From Amyelois transitella (taxonomy: Eukaryota > Arthropoda > Insecta > Lepidoptera > Pyralidae), in assembly GCF_032362555.1 (NCBI RefSeq), contig NC_083505.1, forward strand, positions 9,167,501 to 9,231,500: a DNA stretch of 64,000 nt. The letters run 5' to 3'. Position 1 is the stretch's first letter; every line of letters begins with the position of its first letter. The notes under the pieces are model-generated. The model searched no databases. It saw only the letters and a list, made by a program, of their open reading frames with translations, and was not told the DNA's origin. Shown here one piece after another: positions 4,885 through 38,765 of the stretch. Both the position numbers and the translations under genes were made by a program.

Positions 4885-5950
4885 TCTAAAAAACCCTAAT
4901 AAAGTAATTAAATAGTAAGTTAAATACTATAAACATAACAAAATTAAATTATTAACAAATGGTATTTGAGGATTGCACAATATATGTTTTTCAACCTTAC
5001 ACTACCTTTAAGTATCTTAATTCTGCCTATCGCAATAAATATATATTATCGAACTTTAAGTTTTGTAGAAACTAGGACAAAAATACTTTTTTTATTTTCT
5101 TTATTCCATCAACACATTATACATTTATAGGTTAGCCCATTCTGTTCTTACTTATAATTTAAGATTAAGGAAGAAAGATGTGTTCATTGTTTTTTTTTTT
5201 CACGTAAATGTCACAGTCAATGTCAGAAATAATAAGTTATTTTTTTTATTTTCTCTCGTCGAAATAATTCTTATAGGTATTGGCTATCTGGTATTTGGCT
5301 GAGATCATTGTTCAAATCAATGGATCAAAGTATCAGGTGTTCATAAGCAGGGAATATGATTGATTATTGTAATATTGAAGTGTTTTAAATAAGACTTATT
5401 TAAACACTTCAACAACCAAACAGGTCTTTCGGCCTTAGTTGAACATAATATGGAATTAAGATTCAAATAGATACAGTTTGCTAACCATATACCCATTACT
5501 AATCCATTGCTTTATGTCCAAGTTCATTAGGTGGTCATATTCTAAAGTGCCGGACAATAGGTACGTCATCGCAAAATAAACACTGATATATTCTCATTTC
5601 CCTCAAACGACGGTAAATAAAAATTATTCCTTTCTAATTGGCCTTATTCAAAAGAGAATAATTCAGATAAATCAATTTTTTCCCTTCATGCTATTCTCCT
5701 GTGTCACACTGTGTGACTCACACATGGTGTGTGTGTGATGTGATGTGCACTGTCATGTCATGCATGTTTTGGATTTGACATTGATGTTTTAAATAAATTT
5801 TAGGTTAGCCTGGTTAGACCTGTGATTGTGAAGATACTTTTGTTATATTAAAAAATACATATTACCTCCGACATAATTTAATTCATAAACAGTTTTAAAC
5901 TGTTCATATATTTTTTTAAGAGAAATAAACAAAATTTTGGGAAATCAATT
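4885..5950. promoter_or_regulatory. Divergent AAMP / mRpL10 promoter interval
   Basis: About 1.07 kb separates the two divergent start codons, so both promoters must lie here. Pieces such as tcacagtcaatgtcag (about 5211-5226) and a block rich in TGTGTGA/TGTCATGTC (about 5700-5780) are built from TGACA/TGTCA units, which also recur upstream of the sorting nexin gene. A degraded SINE piece lies near 5445-5500. I see no TATA box that I would call. Confidence 0.5.
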
Positions 5951-8900
5951 ATGGCTTTAGTTAATCGAGGTAAGAAAATGTTTTGTTTTGTGACCAATTA
6001 TTAAAAACTTGTAAGGAATGTAAATAAATATAATATTTATACTTTTCAGCGATTCTACCAGTTAAAACACCGTTTATATTGGTGAAACGCTTTCGAGGAA
6101 AAATCAATATTCAGAGACCTCGTAAACCCCATTTTGAGAGACAGCTTTTGATCGACCTAAGCAAGCCTTATTATGGTCCACGAAAAAATAGCTTACCTGA
6201 CTATGCCCTTTGCGATAAAAGCAAGCAATCAAGCAGAACGGAAATAGATAACCCTTTCGAACGAATTTTAGCCAGAGAATGTCTAGATTGGTTCAATACA
6301 TCCAAAATGGTTGTTTTCTTACATCTTAATTCAATTAGTATGGAAGATAAAACTCCTATATTTGCGACTTTGAAGAAAAATGATATGCATCTTAGAACAT
6401 ATGGTAAAAAAATTGTGAGCATGGCTACAAAAGGCACTCGGTATGAAGCTGTAAATCAATTGTTTACCTCCCACCAAAATATAATTTTTGGTCAACCAGA
6501 TAAAGCTGACAAAATGTTTAAGATACTGAAAAAGGCACCACAATTGGTTGTCATGGGTTAGTATTAAAATATTTTAAAATTTATCTTAAGGTGGTAATAG
6601 GGCAAATCATATTATCGTCTTATACAGTCTAGAAATTATGTCAATTAACCCTTTCCATGCGGAAGCATTATTTCAATTTCGCCGTCTCTGTACGGGCGGT
6701 TTTGTATTAAGGCCCTTTTATAAAACGATGGGCGAGATATTACGTCCTAACAAAAATGGTTCTACTGTACGGAAGGCGTATTATTGCGTTCTGTAATTTT
6801 TTTCGCTAGACGCGGTTGGCGTATTATTTCGTTTTCAAAATTATATAGACAATTTTGGTGTTGCCATACCTTGAAACAATAACGTCTTTATAAGCAGAAA
6901 TGAGCAAAATTGATTTATGATTAAGAATAATCTTTCACCATTCGAAAGCTACATTATCCACGAGTAACATAGACTATATTTTATTTTGGAAAAAAATAGG
7001 GTTCCGTAATATATTTGGATTTTTCGGACACAAACTGAAAAAATAAACCAAAAAGTTTCTTATTTTGCGTACGCTGCCTAAACTACAAAAGATAGAACCA
7101 TAAAATGTTTTAATTAATTGTAGATCTTATAAATATCTACAAAAAAGTCCGCGACACACTATACCTATCTATGTCGAGTGAGGCACAACAACCACATTTT
7201 TATTTAAAAATCTTGAATTTTTTTTGGTCTACATTTAAACGCGTTTTTTTTACTCATGCTATTAATCCTTATCAAAATAAATATTTCATCAATAAGTACA
7301 GTTTATGTAGATAATATTTGGTCTTTGAATGATTAAAATTGGACATTTGGTTTTGAAGTTGTGGTGAAATTAAAATATTACGATTTCTGCTGCACGGCCC
7401 GTTGCGAAGTGAGCAAGACTTAGTTGGCCGCTTTGCGGGCGGTCCTTTAGTTAGTTCTAATAGAGATATATTTAGTATCGGCTGTGCATCTGTGCGAAGC
7501 CGGGGCGGGTCGCTAGTTTTTTATAAAAAAAAGAATTATGTAGTATATTGAAATAAAATTTTTATTAATCATAATAATTTTTTGGGCAACTAGGTATGAG
7601 CAAGCATATAAGCAAATTAACACTCAGTTTTTTACATACTCATTTTAAATTTTTTTATATTATTTTATCATGCTTTTAAAAAAAAATCTATGGTTATAAT
7701 AAAATGTAACGAGGGTAGCTTAAAATTTAATTTATGAGGGTACAATAAGTAACTGGCTAGTTGACATATCTTGTACATTGTATCGTGTTTGTATTGGACA
7801 TGGTGTTATCGGATTTGGAGAGTCATCATAACATTTCACTTTATTTTGTAAAATTCGTTGCGGTATCTTAAATACTTGAGATTCTTTGACCTCGTCAATA
7901 GTTTCGGGAGAAATTTCATTGTTTCTTCCTCGTTTCCTAGATAAAATACTTTGCGACATCTCATCATCGTCGATAAAATTTGGTTGCGAATATGGTTCAT
8001 GCTCGTCAATTTGAGTCTCATCTGAAGATTTATCTTTAAAAATATTATCGAAATCAAAAGGATTCGAGGTAAAACACATTATTAAGAATTATAAGTAATA
8101 CATTCAGTCAGAAAAGTATCGGGAATGGATTATTTATTTATGGTTCCAAATTAAAATTTTTGTTTTTTTTGTTGTTGTTAGATTGGCACAACTGTTTTCC
8201 ATTTTGGCGCGGAGTTTGAGTTGCATCTGTTGTTTACATTAAATACAGTGCTATTTTTAGTTATATCATATCTAGTGTGTATTGCTAATTTCATAATGGA
8301 TAAAAACATCGAACAAAGAGTTTGTCTTAAATTTTGCATTGCCAATGGAATATCGTGTTCGGAGTCACTGAAAATGTTACAGAAGGATTATGGTGAATCG
8401 ACTTTATCAAAAACTCGTGCTTATGAGTGGTACAAAGCGTTCAAAAGCGGTCGAGATGTGATGGAAGATTTGCCTCGCTCTGGTAGGCCATCAACGTCTG
8501 CAACTGAAGTTAACATCGCAAAAGTGAAGGAAATAGTGACTGAAAATCCTCATTCAACTTTGAGAGAGATAGCCACCGAACTTTCTGTATCTCACGAGTC
8601 GATCCGTACCATTTTAACTAATAATTTGGGTATGAAACATGTTGCCGCTCGGCTAGTCCCAAAAGACCTGAATTTTTTTCAAAAACTCAATCGCATGAGA
8701 GTCGCTGAGGACATGCTAGAACGAGTCAATTCCGACCCAACATTCATGAAACGCATTGTTACTGGTGACGAGACGTGGGTTTACGAGTTTGACATGCAAA
8801 CTAGTCAACAAGCTTCGGAGTGGCGCCTTCCAACTGAACCGAAACCGAAAAAACCACGCCAAAGTCGTTCAAAAGTCAAAGTCATGTTGACTGTTTTCTT

Positions 8901-10025
8901 TGACTATCGCGGTGTTGTGCACTCGGAATTCATGCCGGAAGGTCAAACGGTAAATAAGGAATATTATTTGAGTGTTATGCGGCGTTTAAGAGAGCAAATC
9001 CGACGAAAAAGGCCAGATTTGTGGAAAGAAAATTCTTGGAGTTTGCACCATGATAATGCCCCTTCGCACAAGGCCATCATTGTGAACGAATTTTTATCCA
9101 AACACTCAACAAATACCATCGAGCAACCACCATATTCACCAGATATGGCTCCAGCCGACTTTTTTCTTTTTCCTAAACTCAAATTACCACTTCGTGGCAC
9201 CCGTTTTCAATCGGTAGAAGACATAAAAGAGAATTCGCGGCGAGAACTGACCTCAATTCCGGAAACAGCGTTTAAAAAATGTTTTGATGATTGGATTATT
9301 CGTTGGCGTAAGTGTATCGTTTCTAAAGGAGCATATTTTGAAGGTGATAAAATAAATTTGGATGAATAACAAACAGTTTGTGTATTATTGATCTTTTCCT
9401 GCTACTTTCTTGACAGAGTAGTAAACTTACCATTCATATTATTCTCTCTTTATTAGACTTTTGATATAAAAAGCTTACAACACTATCGGCGTAAACCATG
9501 CACTCGTATATACATAATAAGTAAGTATTTTTCCACCGTTTCACGTAAGGTTGTTGAGTTTATAACTACAGTACAGGGGAACCAACTTTCATATTGGTCT
9601 AATCGTTTAACACAAGGATTTGTTTTGGACGCAATAATACGCCCACCGTGTGGCCAACGGTTTTTAGTTATACGTGATATTACGCCAGCCGCATGGAAAG
9701 GGTTAAAAAGTAAATTCTTCTCACCTTTCCCAGGTACACTGTTGCAATATACATCAAAATGAATTGTTATACCCCTTATTCATATATTAAACTTACATTT
9801 TCAGCTGGGATAATTCAAGATAAATTTATGTCTAAAAATGAACTGTTGGAATTCAGTAAAATGCCCAGCATTGACATGGCCCGCAGTCAGCTTTGTGCTG
9901 TTTTGGACAGCGCTGGATGTAGTCTAGTTAGACAATTGAATCAGAGTCAACAGATGCTCGTGTCCTATTTAGAAAAGCATGTGGAACTTCAAAATAAACC
10001 TAAAGATCAAGACATGGAGAGTTGA
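5951..10025 (+). CDS. mRpL10: Mitochondrial ribosomal protein L10 (uL10m)
   Basis: There are three exons: 5951-5969, 6050-6556 and 9805-10025. Phases are consistent (1, 1) and give 248 residues, close to human MRPL10 (261). The ATG exon codes only six residues plus one base (MALVNR-A). The mature part opens with 'VKRFRGKINIQRPRKPHFER', the block found at the start of insect mRpL10. The middle 'MVVFLHLNSISMEDKTPIF' and the end 'GIIQDKFMSKNELLEFSKMP' correspond to the ribosomal L10 fold. The protein is the stalk-base protein of the mitochondrial large subunit that carries L12 and recruits translation factors. The acceptor at 9803-9804 was chosen because the alternative AG at 9734-9735 runs into a stop in phase. 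Intron 2 (6557-9804) is swollen by a piggyBac-like element containing a mariner; the coding exons are intact. Confidence 0.93.
7732..8079 (-). CDS. Hypothetical 115-codon frame within the piggyBac-like element
   Basis: This open frame starts at an ATG (8079) 20 bases from the mariner insertion site. The product is acidic in its first half (FDNIFKDKSSDETQIDEHEP, then DDDEMSQ), followed by a basic RKRGR cluster, and ends without a domain I recognise. An acidic, disordered N-terminus is usual for piggyBac transposases, so a surviving N-terminal exon of the lost transposase is one reading. The DDD catalytic core and the C-terminal cysteine-rich domain are absent. It could instead be captured host sequence or a chance frame. 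The mariner would have separated it from any promoter at the element's right end. Confidence 0.4.
   Translation of the reverse strand: MCFTSNPFDFDNIFKDKSSDETQIDEHEPYSQPNFIDDDEMSQSILSRKRGRNNEISPETIDEVKESQVFKIPQRILQNKVKCYDDSPNPITPCPIQTRYNVQDMSTSQLLIVPS
8101..9418 (+). mobile_element. Mariner (Tc1/mariner) transposon, full length
   Basis: The element is 1,318 bp, a typical mariner size, flanked by the TA target duplication (8099-8100 and 9419-9420). The two ends are imperfect inverted repeats of roughly 28 bp: left GTCAGAAAAGTATCGGGAA against the complement of the right end GTCAAGAAAGTAGCAGGAA. It contains one uninterrupted transposase gene. It inserted into the piggyBac-like element, so it is the younger of the two. 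Confidence 0.88.
8296..9369 (+). CDS. Mariner transposase, DD34D, apparently intact
   Basis: The product of 357 residues matches the usual mariner length (about 345-355). The N-terminal half carries helix-turn-helix regions for binding the inverted repeats (about 1-110, including RSGRPS at 61-66 between the two). A VPKDLN block at 121-126 stands where WVPHEL is usual. The catalytic triad is complete: D158 in TGDETW, D253 in HHDNAPSH and D288 in YSPDMAPADFF, with 34 residues between the last two, the mariner DD34D spacing. I start at the ATG 8296 (MDKNIEQR); the frame extends 25 codons further upstream, but only from a TTG and with a hydrophobic leader foreign to the family. No stop or frameshift is seen, so the enzyme could be functional. 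The ends of the element have diverged from each other, which argues for some age. Confidence 0.93.
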   Translation: MDKNIEQRVCLKFCIANGISCSESLKMLQKDYGESTLSKTRAYEWYKAFKSGRDVMEDLPRSGRPSTSATEVNIAKVKEIVTENPHSTLREIATELSVSHESIRTILTNNLGMKHVAARLVPKDLNFFQKLNRMRVAEDMLERVNSDPTFMKRIVTGDETWVYEFDMQTSQQASEWRLPTEPKPKKPRQSRSKVKVMLTVFFDYRGVVHSEFMPEGQTVNKEYYLSVMRRLREQIRRKRPDLWKENSWSLHHDNAPSHKAIIVNEFLSKHSTNTIEQPPYSPDMAPADFFLFPKLKLPLRGTRFQSVEDIKENSRRELTSIPETAFKKCFDDWIIRWRKCIVSKGAYFEGDKINLDE

Positions 10026-33375: not shown

Positions 33376-35274
33376 GTACTACATAAATATCAAAGCATTG
33401 TGTGTCTTCATTATTCCGTAAATGCTGTGTGAGTTTGCTAGTATATAACAAAGTGAAAGTTATTTCTTGTGATTGTGTGTCTATAAACTAATAAACAATA
33501 TACAATACTCGTTCTATTGTCTTAGATATACTAATTTATCTCAAAAATAAGAGTTATATTAGGTACTTATTACCTATTTGAGCCTAGTTTGGTATTATAC
33601 CTAGTACATGTGAGTTAGACGATATTTATTAAATTTACGAAAAATATGAGAATTTTGGGTAAAATCTTTTTTTGGTTCAAGACTATTCAAGTAGTTTTAC
33701 TTACATATTTGTTTAGTTATCTCTTTCTTGGTCTTCCTCTGTTATCTATTGTCTTTCTAATCTCGTCACGTACCTATATAATAATCGAACACATTCTCCT
33801 TATTTTTCTACATTTTGCGCTCTTAAAATACTCAAGGACAAAAACTTTAATAAAGCTAATTGATTGTTAAAATGTTACACAAGCATATTTTAACATTCAA
33901 TTTAGAAAAATACTTAATTGTTATGGAACCTACGATATTTTTTAAGGAAATTTACTGTATCTCAAATTGTTAGTGTAATGTAATAATGTTTATATTAAAA
34001 TCACACACATTACACTTTTAATATTTATTTTTATTTATAGACCCTTTTTTTATAAAACTGCCGCTTAGATGCAATAGTCAGTAAACTAATACGAACACAC
34101 ACTAGTACCTACCTACTTTTTCTTTCATTTATAATCCTTTGTTTACTTTGGACATACCTTATCAAATTTAGCTACGCAGGCATCCCTAAATTCAAAATGA
34201 GATCATATAAGTATATATACGTTACGTTGGTATACGCAATATACCAACTTATATTTTTTAGTTCTACTTATATAGCAGAAGAAAATATATTTATGGTATT
34301 AAAATTTATATATTTTATTTATTTTAAAAAAACTCAATACCTATCATAATTTACTCAGACATTAAAAACGCAAAAAAATACATAAGTAGTCGAATTCCTA
34401 ACTTATTGCTCTCTGATATTATCTGAATGTTTTATGTTGTGTTTGTTGTTTTTAAGGATAAACAAAGGTGTCTGTGACGTAGGTAAATCTTAATTTATTT
34501 ATTTATTTTACTGTATAAACTTAGATATATGTATAAAAACTTGAACATTTAATAAGCGCCTAATGGTACATATAGGTAGGTATGCACTGAACACAAAATT
34601 ATCAAAGACTAGTTGGGGTAGCGTGGGGCTTCCCTTCTAGAAAAAAGTATTGCTTAATTTATTCCTTAATGTATATAATACATACATACAAAAATACGAA
34701 TGTTTTCTCTTTATTGTTGGTGTGGATATATTTTTTGCATGGTTTCCTAAGGGTTTGCTTTGAAAAGAGCATGCTATATAACTAGATGTAACAAGTTTGT
34801 TAATAATCGAAGACATTCCTTAATAAACACCTCAAAAATTACAATAAATTAAGTAACACAAATTTAGTTTAATTCATTATATTTTTATAAGGAATTTTAT
34901 ATCATTACATTTACACAAGTTTTGATACCGATGTATATTATTGTTAGAAATAACTTTTTATATTTATCTTCATTTATTCAGATAAGAATTTCCATAGATT
35001 TATTCACCGAATAAATAATTGAAATATGTAAGTATTTTTTATACTAAAGTAGTAGGTACTAAAATAAAAATATGCCTGATCAAAAAAGTTGCATCGTAAC
35101 GTTATTGCTTACTTATTATTTTACGCGTAAGTTTATCAATTAACGGAAATGTGGACTTCAAATAAACTTTCTAGGAAATTTATAAACTTACGGTTCTTGT
35201 TATTTTCCGGTGACACATATACGTTCAAACTAAATTTTTGTTTGTCATTTATTCTACTACTACTACTACTAATA

Positions 35275-35485
35275 CCAGGACCACACGGCTCATCAGAAGA
35301 GGACCACTCTATATAGGATTCCCGAGGATGTTGTAAAAAACGACTAAGGTAAAGGCTGAAACTTGGGATTCTTCTTGTACTTAGATGAAAGGCTAGCAAT
35401 CTGTCACTATTTGAATCTCAATTCCGTCATCAAGCCATACAGCTAAACACGGTATTTTAGTAATTTTAAGACTTTTGGCTCTGTT
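35275..35485 (+). repeat. SINE copy, reverse of most others
   Basis: On the plus strand it reads from 'ccaggaccacacggctcatc' through 'aggaccactctatatagga', 'tgtcactatttgaatctcaa' and 'cttttggctctg', the reverse complement of the other copies. It lies about 290 bases upstream of the NDUFS2 copy and is clearly old. Confidence 0.7.
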
Positions 35486-35771
35486 TTTAAGTTGTAGTAG
35501 AAGCGCGGAAGCAGTCTATTATTTACGGAAATTCGTATACATCTACGCGTGAATATAAAAAAAAAAAACAAATACCCGTGAATGATAAATCTATGCGTTG
35601 TAACAAATTTTATAGTGTCCTGCACTGAGTAAATGAAAATAATAAAAACCTTTTTGATTAGATATCTACATGAAAAAAAGCTGTTGTCAAGGGCAACTAC
35701 AGTAAAATAAAAGAAATAGTTCAATTTGAATTGATATCAATTGCCTCTTATTTTTGTAAAGTTTTCAAAAA

Positions 35772-37139
35772 ATGCAACATTTAGTTCGTTGTTTCTGTAA
35801 GAAAACTATCAATTTTCGTTATTTTACAATAAATTATCCTATGTTCGGGCATAGATGGTTTCCCGATCCAGCGTATGTAAAACAGTTTGAAGGAACCGTC
35901 ATGTTCCCAAGTGAAACTACGGAGAAGTACTATAGAAAGATATACAATTCCATGTTGAAACCAGTGGAACGAAAACTACAGAATATGTGGATTAATTTTG
36001 GTCCTCAACATCCTGCCGCTCATGGCGTTCTCCGTCTCATACTGGAACTGGATGGAGAAACTGTAGTTAGGGCCGACTCGCACATCGGATTTCTACATCG
36101 AGCGACCGAGAAACTAATGGAAAACAAACATTATAACCAAAGCTTGCCATATATGGATCGAATGGACTATGTCTCTACGATCTCTAATGAAGTCGGCTTT
36201 TGCATAGCAGTTGAAACATTACTGAATATAGAAGTACCTCCAAGAGCTAAAGCCATACGTGTTTTGGGGAACGAGCTGTGTCGAATAGCAAACCATTTAC
36301 TCAATATATCGGGCACAATTTTAGATGCAGGTGGTATCACACCTTTTTTTTGGATGTGCGAAGAACGAGAAAAAATTTACGAGTTATTTGAAAGGCTGTG
36401 TGGTGCTCGAGTTCATTGCGCATACGTGCGTCCCGGTGGCGTGTCTCAAGATATGCCTATTGGTTTTATGGATGATGTTCATGAATTGTGCATGAAGATG
36501 GGTGAACGCTGTGATGAAACAGAAGATGTAGCGACTGGCAACAGGCTTTATTATGCTAGGACTGCTGGTATCGGAGTACTCACTGCGCATGATGCCATTA
36601 GTTTAGGATTTACGGGGCCTATGTTACGATGTACCGGTGTAAAATGGGACATAAGAATTGCTCACCCATATGATGGTTATGATTTGTACGAATTTGATGC
36701 TGTTGTGGGAACTTTTGGTGATAGTTACGATCGCCATTTGCTGCGTTTGGAAGAACTGCGGCAGTCCCTGCGAATTATCGATCAAGTAATTAATACAATG
36801 CCCGAGGGTGAAGTTAAGACCGACGACTCCAAAATATGTCTCCCTTCTAGGAAAGAGATGAAAACGTCTATGGAATCACTCATTCATCATTTCAAGTTGT
36901 GCACTGAAGGTTACCCTGTACCTCCTGGATCTACTTATGCTGCGGTTGAATGTCCGAAAGGCGAATTAGGTGTATATATGGTAGCTGACGGTACATCGAA
37001 ACCTTACAGGGTTCATTTGAGACCTTGTTCATATACACATCTAATGGCACTCTCGGTAATGGCGCCTAAATTGATGCTTTCTGATGTAGCTGTACTTATT
37101 GCCACTATAGATATTGTATTTGGCGATATAGATCGTTGA
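35772..37139 (+). CDS. Intronless NDUFS2-like complex I 49-kDa subunit (retrogene candidate)
   Basis: One uninterrupted frame of 455 residues covers the whole subunit, close to human NDUFS2 (463). The N-terminus (MQHLVRCFCKKTINFRYF) is basic and without acidic residues, as in a mitochondrial import signal. Core motifs of the quinone-site subunit are kept: NFGPQHPAAHGVLR (histidines 80 and 84), LHRATEKL (R110, the place of the methylated arginine in mammals), YMDRMDYVS (Y123), LDAGG (D165), MKTSMESLIHHFKL and the end DIVFGDIDR. Yet the protein differs from usual NDUFS2 at many positions that are normally nearly fixed, for example GFLHRATEKL for G(L)LHRGTEKL, and RPCSYTHLM where APGFAHLA is usual. 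Full length, no introns and fast divergence suggest a retrotransposed paralogue under selection, as with the testis-biased ND-49 paralogue of Drosophila. It would act in complex I of the inner mitochondrial membrane. A second, intron-containing NDUFS2 is expected elsewhere in the genome. Confidence 0.95.
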   Translation: MQHLVRCFCKKTINFRYFTINYPMFGHRWFPDPAYVKQFEGTVMFPSETTEKYYRKIYNSMLKPVERKLQNMWINFGPQHPAAHGVLRLILELDGETVVRADSHIGFLHRATEKLMENKHYNQSLPYMDRMDYVSTISNEVGFCIAVETLLNIEVPPRAKAIRVLGNELCRIANHLLNISGTILDAGGITPFFWMCEEREKIYELFERLCGARVHCAYVRPGGVSQDMPIGFMDDVHELCMKMGERCDETEDVATGNRLYYARTAGIGVLTAHDAISLGFTGPMLRCTGVKWDIRIAHPYDGYDLYEFDAVVGTFGDSYDRHLLRLEELRQSLRIIDQVINTMPEGEVKTDDSKICLPSRKEMKTSMESLIHHFKLCTEGYPVPPGSTYAAVECPKGELGVYMVADGTSKPYRVHLRPCSYTHLMALSVMAPKLMLSDVAVLIATIDIVFGDIDR

Positions 37140-37178
37140 TTTTTCACAAAAATGTATTCCTCCTCAGCTGCGTGGCAG

Positions 37179-37184
37179 AATAAA
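37179..37184 (+). terminator. Polyadenylation signal of the NDUFS2 copy
   Basis: AATAAA lies 40 bases after the stop codon. It supports the copy being transcribed with its own 3' end, or having kept that of the parent mRNA. Confidence 0.55.
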
Positions 37185-37450
37185 TTATAATGTCCTATCT
37201 TCTTACCTATGTAGGTAAGTAGGTAGTAATAAATATGTATTTATTCAATTAAATATTTAATTTAAAAATAATATCTTGTATTTATTAATTGTAGACTGTA
37301 CTGACTGACCTAACTACCTATCGAAGTACACAGTCTTGTAGATACCTTATAAGATAGAATGCCAACTCAACATGTTGAGAGCAATTAGAGAAAAAATATT
37401 ATATTTTGATGGCTAACATTGAAAGAACATACATACATACATACATAAAA

Positions 37451-38694
37451 TCACGCCTCTTTCTCGGAGGGGTAGGCAGAGACTACCTCTTTCCACTTGC
37501 CAAGATCTCTGCATACTTCCTTCGCTTCATCCACATTCATAACTCTCTTTATACAAGCTCGGCGGTTTCGGGTACTTTTGACCTGACCCTTTACCAGGAC
37601 GTCCTTAATTTGATCAAGATACGTTCGTCTAGGTCTTCCCACTCCGACCTTTCCCTCCATACTCTCCTTGTAAATCTGCTTAGTCAACCTGCTTTCATTC
37701 ATCCTCTCCACATGACCGAACCATCTTAACATACCTTTTCTATTCCTGTAACTACATCTTCTTTCACATCACAACATTCCCTTATCACGCTGTTCCTTAT
37801 CCGGTCACTCAATTTCACACCCAACATACTCCTTAACGCTCTTATTTCCACTGCATTTATTCTGCTTTCGTGCTTCTTTTGCCATACCCAACTTTCACTC
37901 CCATACATTAATGTCGGGACCAACACGCCCCTGTGCACAGCCAGTCGAGCCTTTTTGGATAGTTTCTGACTGCTCATAAAGGCATGCAAAGCTCCATTCA
38001 CCATGTTCCCCGCGTTCACTCTCCTTTCAATATCACTATCATATTTGCCATCTGATGGAAACTTTGATCCTAGATATACAAACTCTTTCACTTGCTCAAC
38101 TTTTTCCCCTCCAATCAAAATATTACATGCTGTAATTTCTTTCTCCATTTCAAAAACCAGTGTTTTAGTTTTACTTACGTTCCCTTTCATTCCTTTCTCT
38201 TTTAAAGCTTCATGCGTAAAGTTTACCATCTCCTGTAACTCCTCCGCTGATGACGCCAGTATAACCTGATCGTCGGCATAGAGCAGACATTTGACGAGTA
38301 ACTCATTCATCCTTAATCCACTTTCAGACTCTTTCAAATCTGTCAAACAACTATCCATAAATAGGTTGAACAGCCACGGTGACGCAACACATCCTTGCCT
38401 AACGCCTTTCTCAATCTTAAACCACTCAGTGTGCGCTCCGTTTATCCTGACACAAGCACTCGAATCCTCATATAAGGATTTCAGTGCTCGTATTAAGAGA
38501 CTGCTCACCCCATGCATAGAAAGTGCTGACCACAATTCATTCCTCTCAACTCTGTCATAGGCCTTTTCCAGATCTACGAATGTGCAATAGACTTTTTGAC
38601 TGTTGGCCAAAAACTTTTCGGCTATGCACCGCAAGGAAAAGACCTGATCAGTACATCCCATTCCCTTTCGAAATCCCGCTTGAGCATCCCACAT
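37451..38694 (-). pseudogene. LINE reverse transcriptase remnant, frameshifted
   Basis: The first frame (38694-37726) encodes the palm and thumb of a reverse transcriptase: motif A FVDLEKAYDRV, then 'GVRQGCVASPWLFNLFMD' and the catalytic LLYADDQVILAS (YADD), followed by 'LVPTLMYGSESW'. A loss of about one base near 37730 shifts it into the second frame (37732-37451), with the usual C-terminal LINE block LRWFGHVERM and 'GRPRRTYLDQI'. The endonuclease domain and N-terminal RT fingers are missing. It is dead as a coding unit. Confidence 0.9.
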
Positions 38695-38720
38695 TTTGTC
38701 AACTACTACTACTACTACTA

Positions 38721-38765
38721 CTAGTTAGCTAGCTAGTCAGTACAACTGACTAGCTAGCTAACTAG
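38721..38765. other. Perfect 21-bp hairpin at the LINE 5' junction
   Basis: CTAGTTAGCTAGCTAGTCAG followed by T pairs exactly with its complement ending at 38765, leaving a three-base loop. It is built from TAGC units and abuts a (CTA)n run on one side and the target duplication on the other. No other LINE copy here shows it. Confidence 0.85.

Follow-up and report, generated by a model that had tools for sequence, protein, structure and literature searches.

An intronless, constrained second copy of NDUFS2 in a moth genome that also holds second copies of most of its matrix-arm partners

Duplicated energy genes in insects

Why do insects keep testis-type duplicates of their energy genes? The question is an open one (PMC551531, PMC8950493), and the causes proposed in these two papers are an escape from X inactivation in males, a sexual conflict over the parent gene, the repair of mtDNA that harms males, and enzyme properties specific to sperm. 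Drosophila duplicates of nuclear-encoded mitochondrial genes are reported to be strongly testis-biased (PMC551531, PMC8950493), and COX4L is described as essential for male fertility (PMC8950493). Like the gene reported here, the testis-biased duplicates of Drosophila, which include COX4L and those of the 20, 24, 49 and 51 kDa subunits, are often intronless or intron-poor and have intact frames; they span OXPHOS and the TCA cycle and lack the NRG element of their parents (PMC551531, PMC2241641, PMC8950493). According to PMC2241641, the housekeeping copy of an insect OXPHOS gene bears this element, RTTAYRTAAY, usually in intron 1, and 214 of 215 insect OXPHOS duplicates follow the pattern in which one paralog only contains it.

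For the 49 kDa subunit of complex I, Table 2 of PMC551531 lists a second gene in both Drosophila and Anopheles. The sequence-only reading of our locus had credited Drosophila with a diverged second copy of NDUFS2; the second gene is indeed listed there, but it is not peculiar to the fly (PMC551531). The Drosophila gene CG11913 is likewise a second copy of this subunit in an insect, although it has two coding exons where our copy has one (PMC551531), and it appears in a list of retrogenes that have similarity to mitochondrial genes by function, many of which (87%) are testis-expressed (PMC1839131). Intact, constrained retrocopies resembling ours are described in Lepidoptera, those of the silkworm showing a testis-specific excess (PMC11675541). 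In the monarch sperm proteome complex I is reported to be enriched, with some subunits more abundant than in Manduca; the statement does not specify the paralogs (PMC5712127).

A duplicated insect energy gene is of a known kind, and what is notable in this moth is the extent of duplication. In the matrix arm of complex I, six of the seven nuclear-encoded core subunits (S1, S2, S3, S7, S8 and V2) have a second locus, and they include the 75, 30 and 23 kDa subunits, which are absent from the complex I rows of Table 2 in PMC551531. None of the literature matches listed describes a doubled complex I matrix arm for moths, although this does not prove that no such account exists. Here we describe the second NDUFS2 gene, which lies in a 64-kb stretch of DNA (the window), and place it among these other copies.

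The window copy, its parent and its origin

The copy occupies positions 35772-37139 of the window on the forward strand as a single open, intronless frame of 455 codons plus stop, from ATG to a terminal TGA. It encodes NDUFS2, the 49 kDa subunit of complex I: the Pfam family Complex1_49kDa matches over profile positions 1-271 of 271 (E 6.5e-108), and the protein aligns with Drosophila ND-49 from the Protein Data Bank over 429 residues with zero gaps (E 1e-178). The first 25 residues (35772-35846) form a putative mitochondrial targeting segment, judged from composition: it holds four Lys or Arg, no Asp or Glu, and reaches a maximum hydrophobic moment of 0.38. This leader precedes the part that can be aligned with the parent gene, whose own leader before the motif GHRW is 36 residues long and differs in sequence. 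A possible polyadenylation signal, AATAAA, lies 40 bases past the stop (37179-37184), and further matches to A[AT]TAAA stand at +89 and +109.

A family search and a protein search of the genome (327 Mb, 33 contigs), in which every first-look candidate was scored (7/7 and 10/10), revealed two NDUFS2 loci: the window copy on contig C1 and an intron-containing gene on contig C29. The sequence-only reading had described a full-length 455-residue NDUFS2 frame with no intron and had looked to an intron-containing NDUFS2 elsewhere in the genome; the frame, the domain and the ND-49 alignment bear out the description, and the intron-containing gene is present, so that the window copy is not the only NDUFS2. 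We assembled the model of the C29 gene by hand from GT-AG borders in the genomic sequence. It has ten coding exons over approximately 10 kb and encodes 466 amino acids, with its ATG at C29:2802282 and its last codon ending at 2812440. The two genes share their family, the length of the conserved part and the invariant quinone-site residues, but the C29 gene, unlike the window copy, is divided into exons, carries an NRG element in intron 1, and is 84% identical to the Drosophila protein where the window copy is 58% identical. From GHRW to the end the two proteins align over 430 residues each with no indel and are 59% identical, and none of the eight parental introns within this part is present in the window copy. 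The most diverged stretch of the copy (37010-37136) is the counterpart of the parent's last exon, with 17 of 43 residues identical. Within the parent gene, at C29 ~2805507-2805593, a partial tandem copy of one exon's 3' half follows that exon and has a donor-like site of its own.

A poly(A) tract, a target-site duplication and UTR similarity were looked for around the window copy and none was found. Intron loss by itself therefore carries the case for retroposition, and the event is probably old; the poly(A) tract and target-site duplication may have been lost through the erosion that is common in old copies.

The NRG element conforms to the published pattern in this pair, being present in the parent and absent in the copy (PMC2241641). 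The parent bears a full motif, GTTACGTAAT, 143 bases past its ATG, at a point 49 bases inside intron 1, while the core TTAYRTAA has no match from 1500 bases before the ATG of the window copy to 500 past its stop (34272-37639; the motif is palindromic and both strands are hence covered). The full 10-base motif matches only once in the whole window, and a motif this rare would be missing from the copy by chance, so that its absence there means little. The informative half of the contrast is the parent's motif at the published position.

When did the copy arise? An alternative reading of its origin, compatible with the role that we propose below, is that it does not stem from an event in the moth lineage but is the ortholog of an ancient insect duplicate, namely Drosophila CG11913 or the second 49 kDa gene of Anopheles. 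Placement tests on nine sequences (388 columns, four topologies) gave the best scores to trees that put the copy beyond the moth and fly NDUFS2 taken together, namely tree 4 with LG+G4 and tree 2 with LG+C20+G4. Under LG+G4 only, bp-RELL excluded the moth-lineage tree (0.031) and c-ELW one other. However, all four topologies survived the AU, KH and SH tests with both models (lowest p-AU 0.114, from 2000 resamplings, which the program calls too few for AU). A free maximum-likelihood search placed the copy beside the bacteria with 66% bootstrap; this is probably long-branch attraction and shows that an outward pull is present, which counts against reading the outside placements as evidence of age. 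By exon count, the two coding exons of CG11913 also speak against orthology with a single-exon gene. On balance we regard an ancient insect duplicate as rather unlikely. The name ND-49L, which we take to denote CG11913 in Drosophila, had no match in our literature search.

Second copies of matrix-arm partners and of other mitochondrial enzymes

How far does the duplication extend among the partners of NDUFS2? NDUFS1 is represented by an intron-containing gene on C16 and an intronless gene of 714 residues on C11. The NDUFS3 loci, on C18 and C2, are both single-exon frames, and this pair consequently says nothing about retroposition. The NDUFS7 genes on C12 and C17 have introns at different positions; comparison of the two (L049 and L050, respectively) gives the impression that the faster copy, L050, had been processed and had then gained new introns. 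NDUFS8 lies in four pieces on C11, and the same stretch is one exon on C31. The NDUFV2 gene on C2 has one intron fewer, in the part compared, than that on C10. NDUFV1 alone has a single locus (L053, C1:2978000-2987900). On its minus strand, at approximately 5200-5760 of the locus, are two tandem 147-base exons with near-identical 49-residue products; they look mutually exclusive, and an isoform switch in the NADH-binding subunit is possible.

Identity to Drosophila, canonical and second copy respectively, is 70 and 50% for S1, 84 and 58% for S2, 80 and 57% for S3, 89 and 77% for S7, 90 and 89% for S8, and 67 and 49% for V2, as taken from tblastn pieces that overrun by a few residues into introns, chiefly in the second V2 and the canonical S8, so that the identities of these are too low. 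With exons joined by hand, the second copy evolves faster in six of the six pairs, with p from 8e-3 for S7 to 6e-26 for S2 (297 aligned N-terminal columns only for S1; S7, S8 and V2 without their N-terminal exons). Only three of the six pairs show the lower GC3 in the second copy.

All 28 cysteines common to the canonical copy, Drosophila and mammal are kept in the second copies of four Fe-S subunits (11 in S1, five in S7, eight in S8 and four in V2), whereas the window copy keeps none of the five shared cysteines of S2, a subunit that presumably holds no Fe-S cluster; S3 has none to compare. This contrast, drawn from residues in the predicted proteins, is an argument for an electron-transfer chain that is still present in the second copies.

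The NRG rule is not clean over these other pairs. Canonical S3, S7 and V1 each have a strict TTACGTAA close to their start, and another is placed 528 bases before the first exon found in the second V2 copy. An AT-type full match occurs in canonical V2 and also in the second S1 copy, 14 bases before the ATG; canonical S1, like canonical S8, lacks any full match. The scan is rough: for several genes it had no first exon to start from, and it covered only 263 bases upstream of the second S7 copy.

Are second copies specific to complex I? We joined five other E. coli enzymes with mitochondrial homologs into one query and scored 23 of the 63 first-look candidates; among these, five of five enzymes have more than one locus, and the second-copy pattern is thus not specific to complex I. 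SdhA lies on C16 and C31, SdhB on C22 and C20, fumarase on C14 and C22, malate dehydrogenase on C21 with a further frame on C5 at 36% identity, and ATP synthase beta at two loci on C8 and one on C30. The two C8 genes (C8:5735136-5736548 and C8:5762389-5763801) are single-frame, well conserved, approximately 26 kb apart and have different leaders; the third, on C30, contains introns. Of six single-frame copies of mitochondrial enzymes, the N termini that could be seen look targeting-like or leader-like by eye.

A second joined query was built from five E. coli enzymes that are cytosolic in animals, and 20 of its 33 first-look candidates were scored. Among these, CTP synthase, methionine adenosyltransferase and 6-phosphogluconate dehydrogenase have single loci, IMP dehydrogenase has one single-frame gene and a weak match elsewhere, and enolase has two extra single-frame copies; triosephosphate isomerase also has a single locus. 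The extra enolase copies (C31:10487065-10488360 and C31:1566386-1567672) are diverged, and one has a TGA inside the match. In total, 11 of 12 mitochondrial genes have a second locus, compared with one or two of six other genes (Fisher p 0.004 or 0.02), a contrast to be read as an indication since the genes were hand-picked rather than random, the candidates were scored in part, and E. coli queries miss short exons. Tpi and 6-phosphogluconate dehydrogenase, which we take to be Z-linked in Lepidoptera, both lie on C31, a linkage that fits a moth, and C31 is probably the Z chromosome.

Constraint on the window copy and its probable role

What has selection kept in the window copy? Over 430 codons the copy and the parent differ at 0.33, 0.22 and 0.74 of first, second and third codon positions, respectively, the last figure being inflated by the strong difference in GC3 (0.79 in the parent, 0.35 in the copy). 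By NG86, dN is 0.338 and dS is not computable; synonymous sites are saturated, and the pair consequently yields no dN/dS value. Constraint can be judged independently of dS from the positions that are identical in 28 other sequences, namely 25 of 80 fetched prokaryotic NuoD and those of mouse, Drosophila and the parent gene. Of these 80 invariant positions 75 are kept in the copy, whereas it differs from the parent at 170 of the other 350 (Fisher p 5e-14). In six leave-one-out controls that exclude the copy, none of 80 positions is changed in the parent, in Drosophila or in mouse, and three bacteria change 1 of 81, 3 of 83 and 0 of 80. The five invariant positions altered in the copy are P103S, A188G, F196C, F421Y and E452D. 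With Drosophila as the reference, the copy has 132 changes of its own and the parent 13 (p 6e-26), and the maximum-likelihood branches are 0.58 and 0.07, respectively. Judged by these comparisons, the window copy is constrained, though far less than its parent.

The residues kept include those of the putative quinone site. In comparison with 21 of the 80 prokaryotic loci, H80, H84, Y133 and D185 are conserved, and R110 and the C-terminal IDR are kept as well. The HPAAH loop from H80 to H84 (36009-36023), the invariant Tyr133 (36168-36170) and the invariant Asp185 (36324-36326) presumably contribute to this site, and R110 in the motif LHR (36099-36101) is, we assume, the equivalent of the arginine methylated by NDUFAF7; all of these are assigned by conservation. 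The sequence-only reading had named H80, H84, Y123 and D165 as quinone-site residues and had R110 kept with other near-invariant positions changed. Its histidines and arginine stand and the five altered positions agree with it, but residue 123 is Gln and residue 165 is Leu, the correct sites being Y133 and D185.

An AlphaFold2 model, for which 21 of the 80 fetched prokaryotic relatives were used, reaches a mean pLDDT of 72.7. Its best Foldseek match is Drosophila complex I subunit S2 (E 4.6e-42; TM 0.77 by query and 0.82 by target), with an rmsd of 16.5 over the full length. pLDDT is below 50 in residues 1-46, 61-85, 107-111, 119-131 and 449-455, and thus in the stretch containing H80 and H84. 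The predicted model confirms the NDUFS2 fold but not the quinone site, for which conservation is the support.

We think it moderately probable that the window copy is an old processed copy of NDUFS2 that became a gene, works in complex I and has the male germ line as its main site of expression. A reverse-transcribed copy of the genome's NDUFS2 would have become a gene long ago. Its protein, with a targeting-like N terminus, would be imported into mitochondria and, in some molecules of complex I, would take the place of the parent's 49 kDa subunit. There, with the second copies of S1, S3, S7, S8 and V2 as its partners, it may work by the same NADH:ubiquinone chemistry. By analogy with Drosophila, the copy may have been kept because it had lost the parent's housekeeping control, the NRG element in intron 1, and expression chiefly in the male germ line would give sperm mitochondria their own energy machinery. 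The copy probably belongs to a set of duplicated energy genes of the Drosophila type, used in the male germ line, and the matrix-arm second copies together suggest a special version of complex I, perhaps for sperm.

The same retrogene could have been selected for another job or tissue, either as a somatic 49 kDa subunit (in hypoxia, diapause or flight muscle) or as a protein outside complex I. Such a shift could account for the divergence of the last-exon part, the most pronounced in the protein, and for the five altered invariant positions, and a changed expression pattern has been proposed in general as what permits fixation of duplicates (PMC2241641). However, the retention of H80, H84, Y133, D185 and the C-terminal IDR, the doubling of five partner subunits, and the 28 of 28 shared cysteines in four Fe-S subunits fit an assembled enzyme, and the insect precedent published in PMC551531 is testis-biased; we consider another job or tissue unlikely. 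An ageing retropseudogene whose frame is open by chance would explain fast evolution and altered invariant residues but is very improbable, being already contradicted, save for a very recent loss of function, by the 75 invariant sites kept, the lower divergence at second than at third positions, the lack of any indel in 430 codons, and neutral simulations (substitutions only, three divergence settings, 300 each) in which 0 of 300 frames stayed open at each of the three levels. The sequence-only reading had proposed a retrogene kept by selection, and with an intron-containing parent elsewhere, invariant sites kept and the neutral simulations, we conclude from these sequence comparisons that the window copy is a retrogene of the C29 NDUFS2 under purifying selection.

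More broadly, we tentatively suggest, as something possible though short of probable, that moths make two kinds of matrix arm. One would serve the soma; the other, in the male germ line, would have dedicated paralogs in place of all of S1, S2, S3, S7, S8 and V2, perhaps with a variation of V1 by way of its tandem exons, which look mutually exclusive, and would be part of a broader second set of energy enzymes in the mitochondria. Seven OXPHOS duplication events were counted in the silkworm data of 2007, and Drosophilidae were said to stand out (PMC2241641). If the copies described here prove to be expressed, the difference between flies and moths in OXPHOS duplication may be smaller than believed; this genome, in which six of the seven core matrix-arm subunits and also SdhA, SdhB and ATP synthase beta have second loci, points that way. 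Male moths are ZZ, and male X inactivation therefore cannot explain a second set in a moth.

Finally, we describe the surroundings of the gene. Its neighbours in the window, which the sequence-only reading took for genes that all have introns, are seen as single exon-like frames with domain matches, to an amino-acid permease and a PX domain, and are not gene models. A LINE reverse-transcriptase remnant (37454-38724, reverse strand) starts approximately 315 bases after the retrogene. Near canonical NDUFV2 (L048) a 600-codon frame encodes a protein closely similar to it; the family is thus present elsewhere, and its site beside the window copy need not mean anything. Before the gene, positions 35280-35520 are repeat-like and resemble, by eye, sequence immediately before exon 2 in the parent gene on C29; this is probably a dispersed element. 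Farther away, a mariner-type transposase frame of 357 codons with no stops (8296-9366, forward strand) is preceded by an exon-like frame with a borderline ribosomal L10 match (6034-6558, E 9e-5), of which the frame at 9714-10022, after the mariner frame, could by reading be the next exon.
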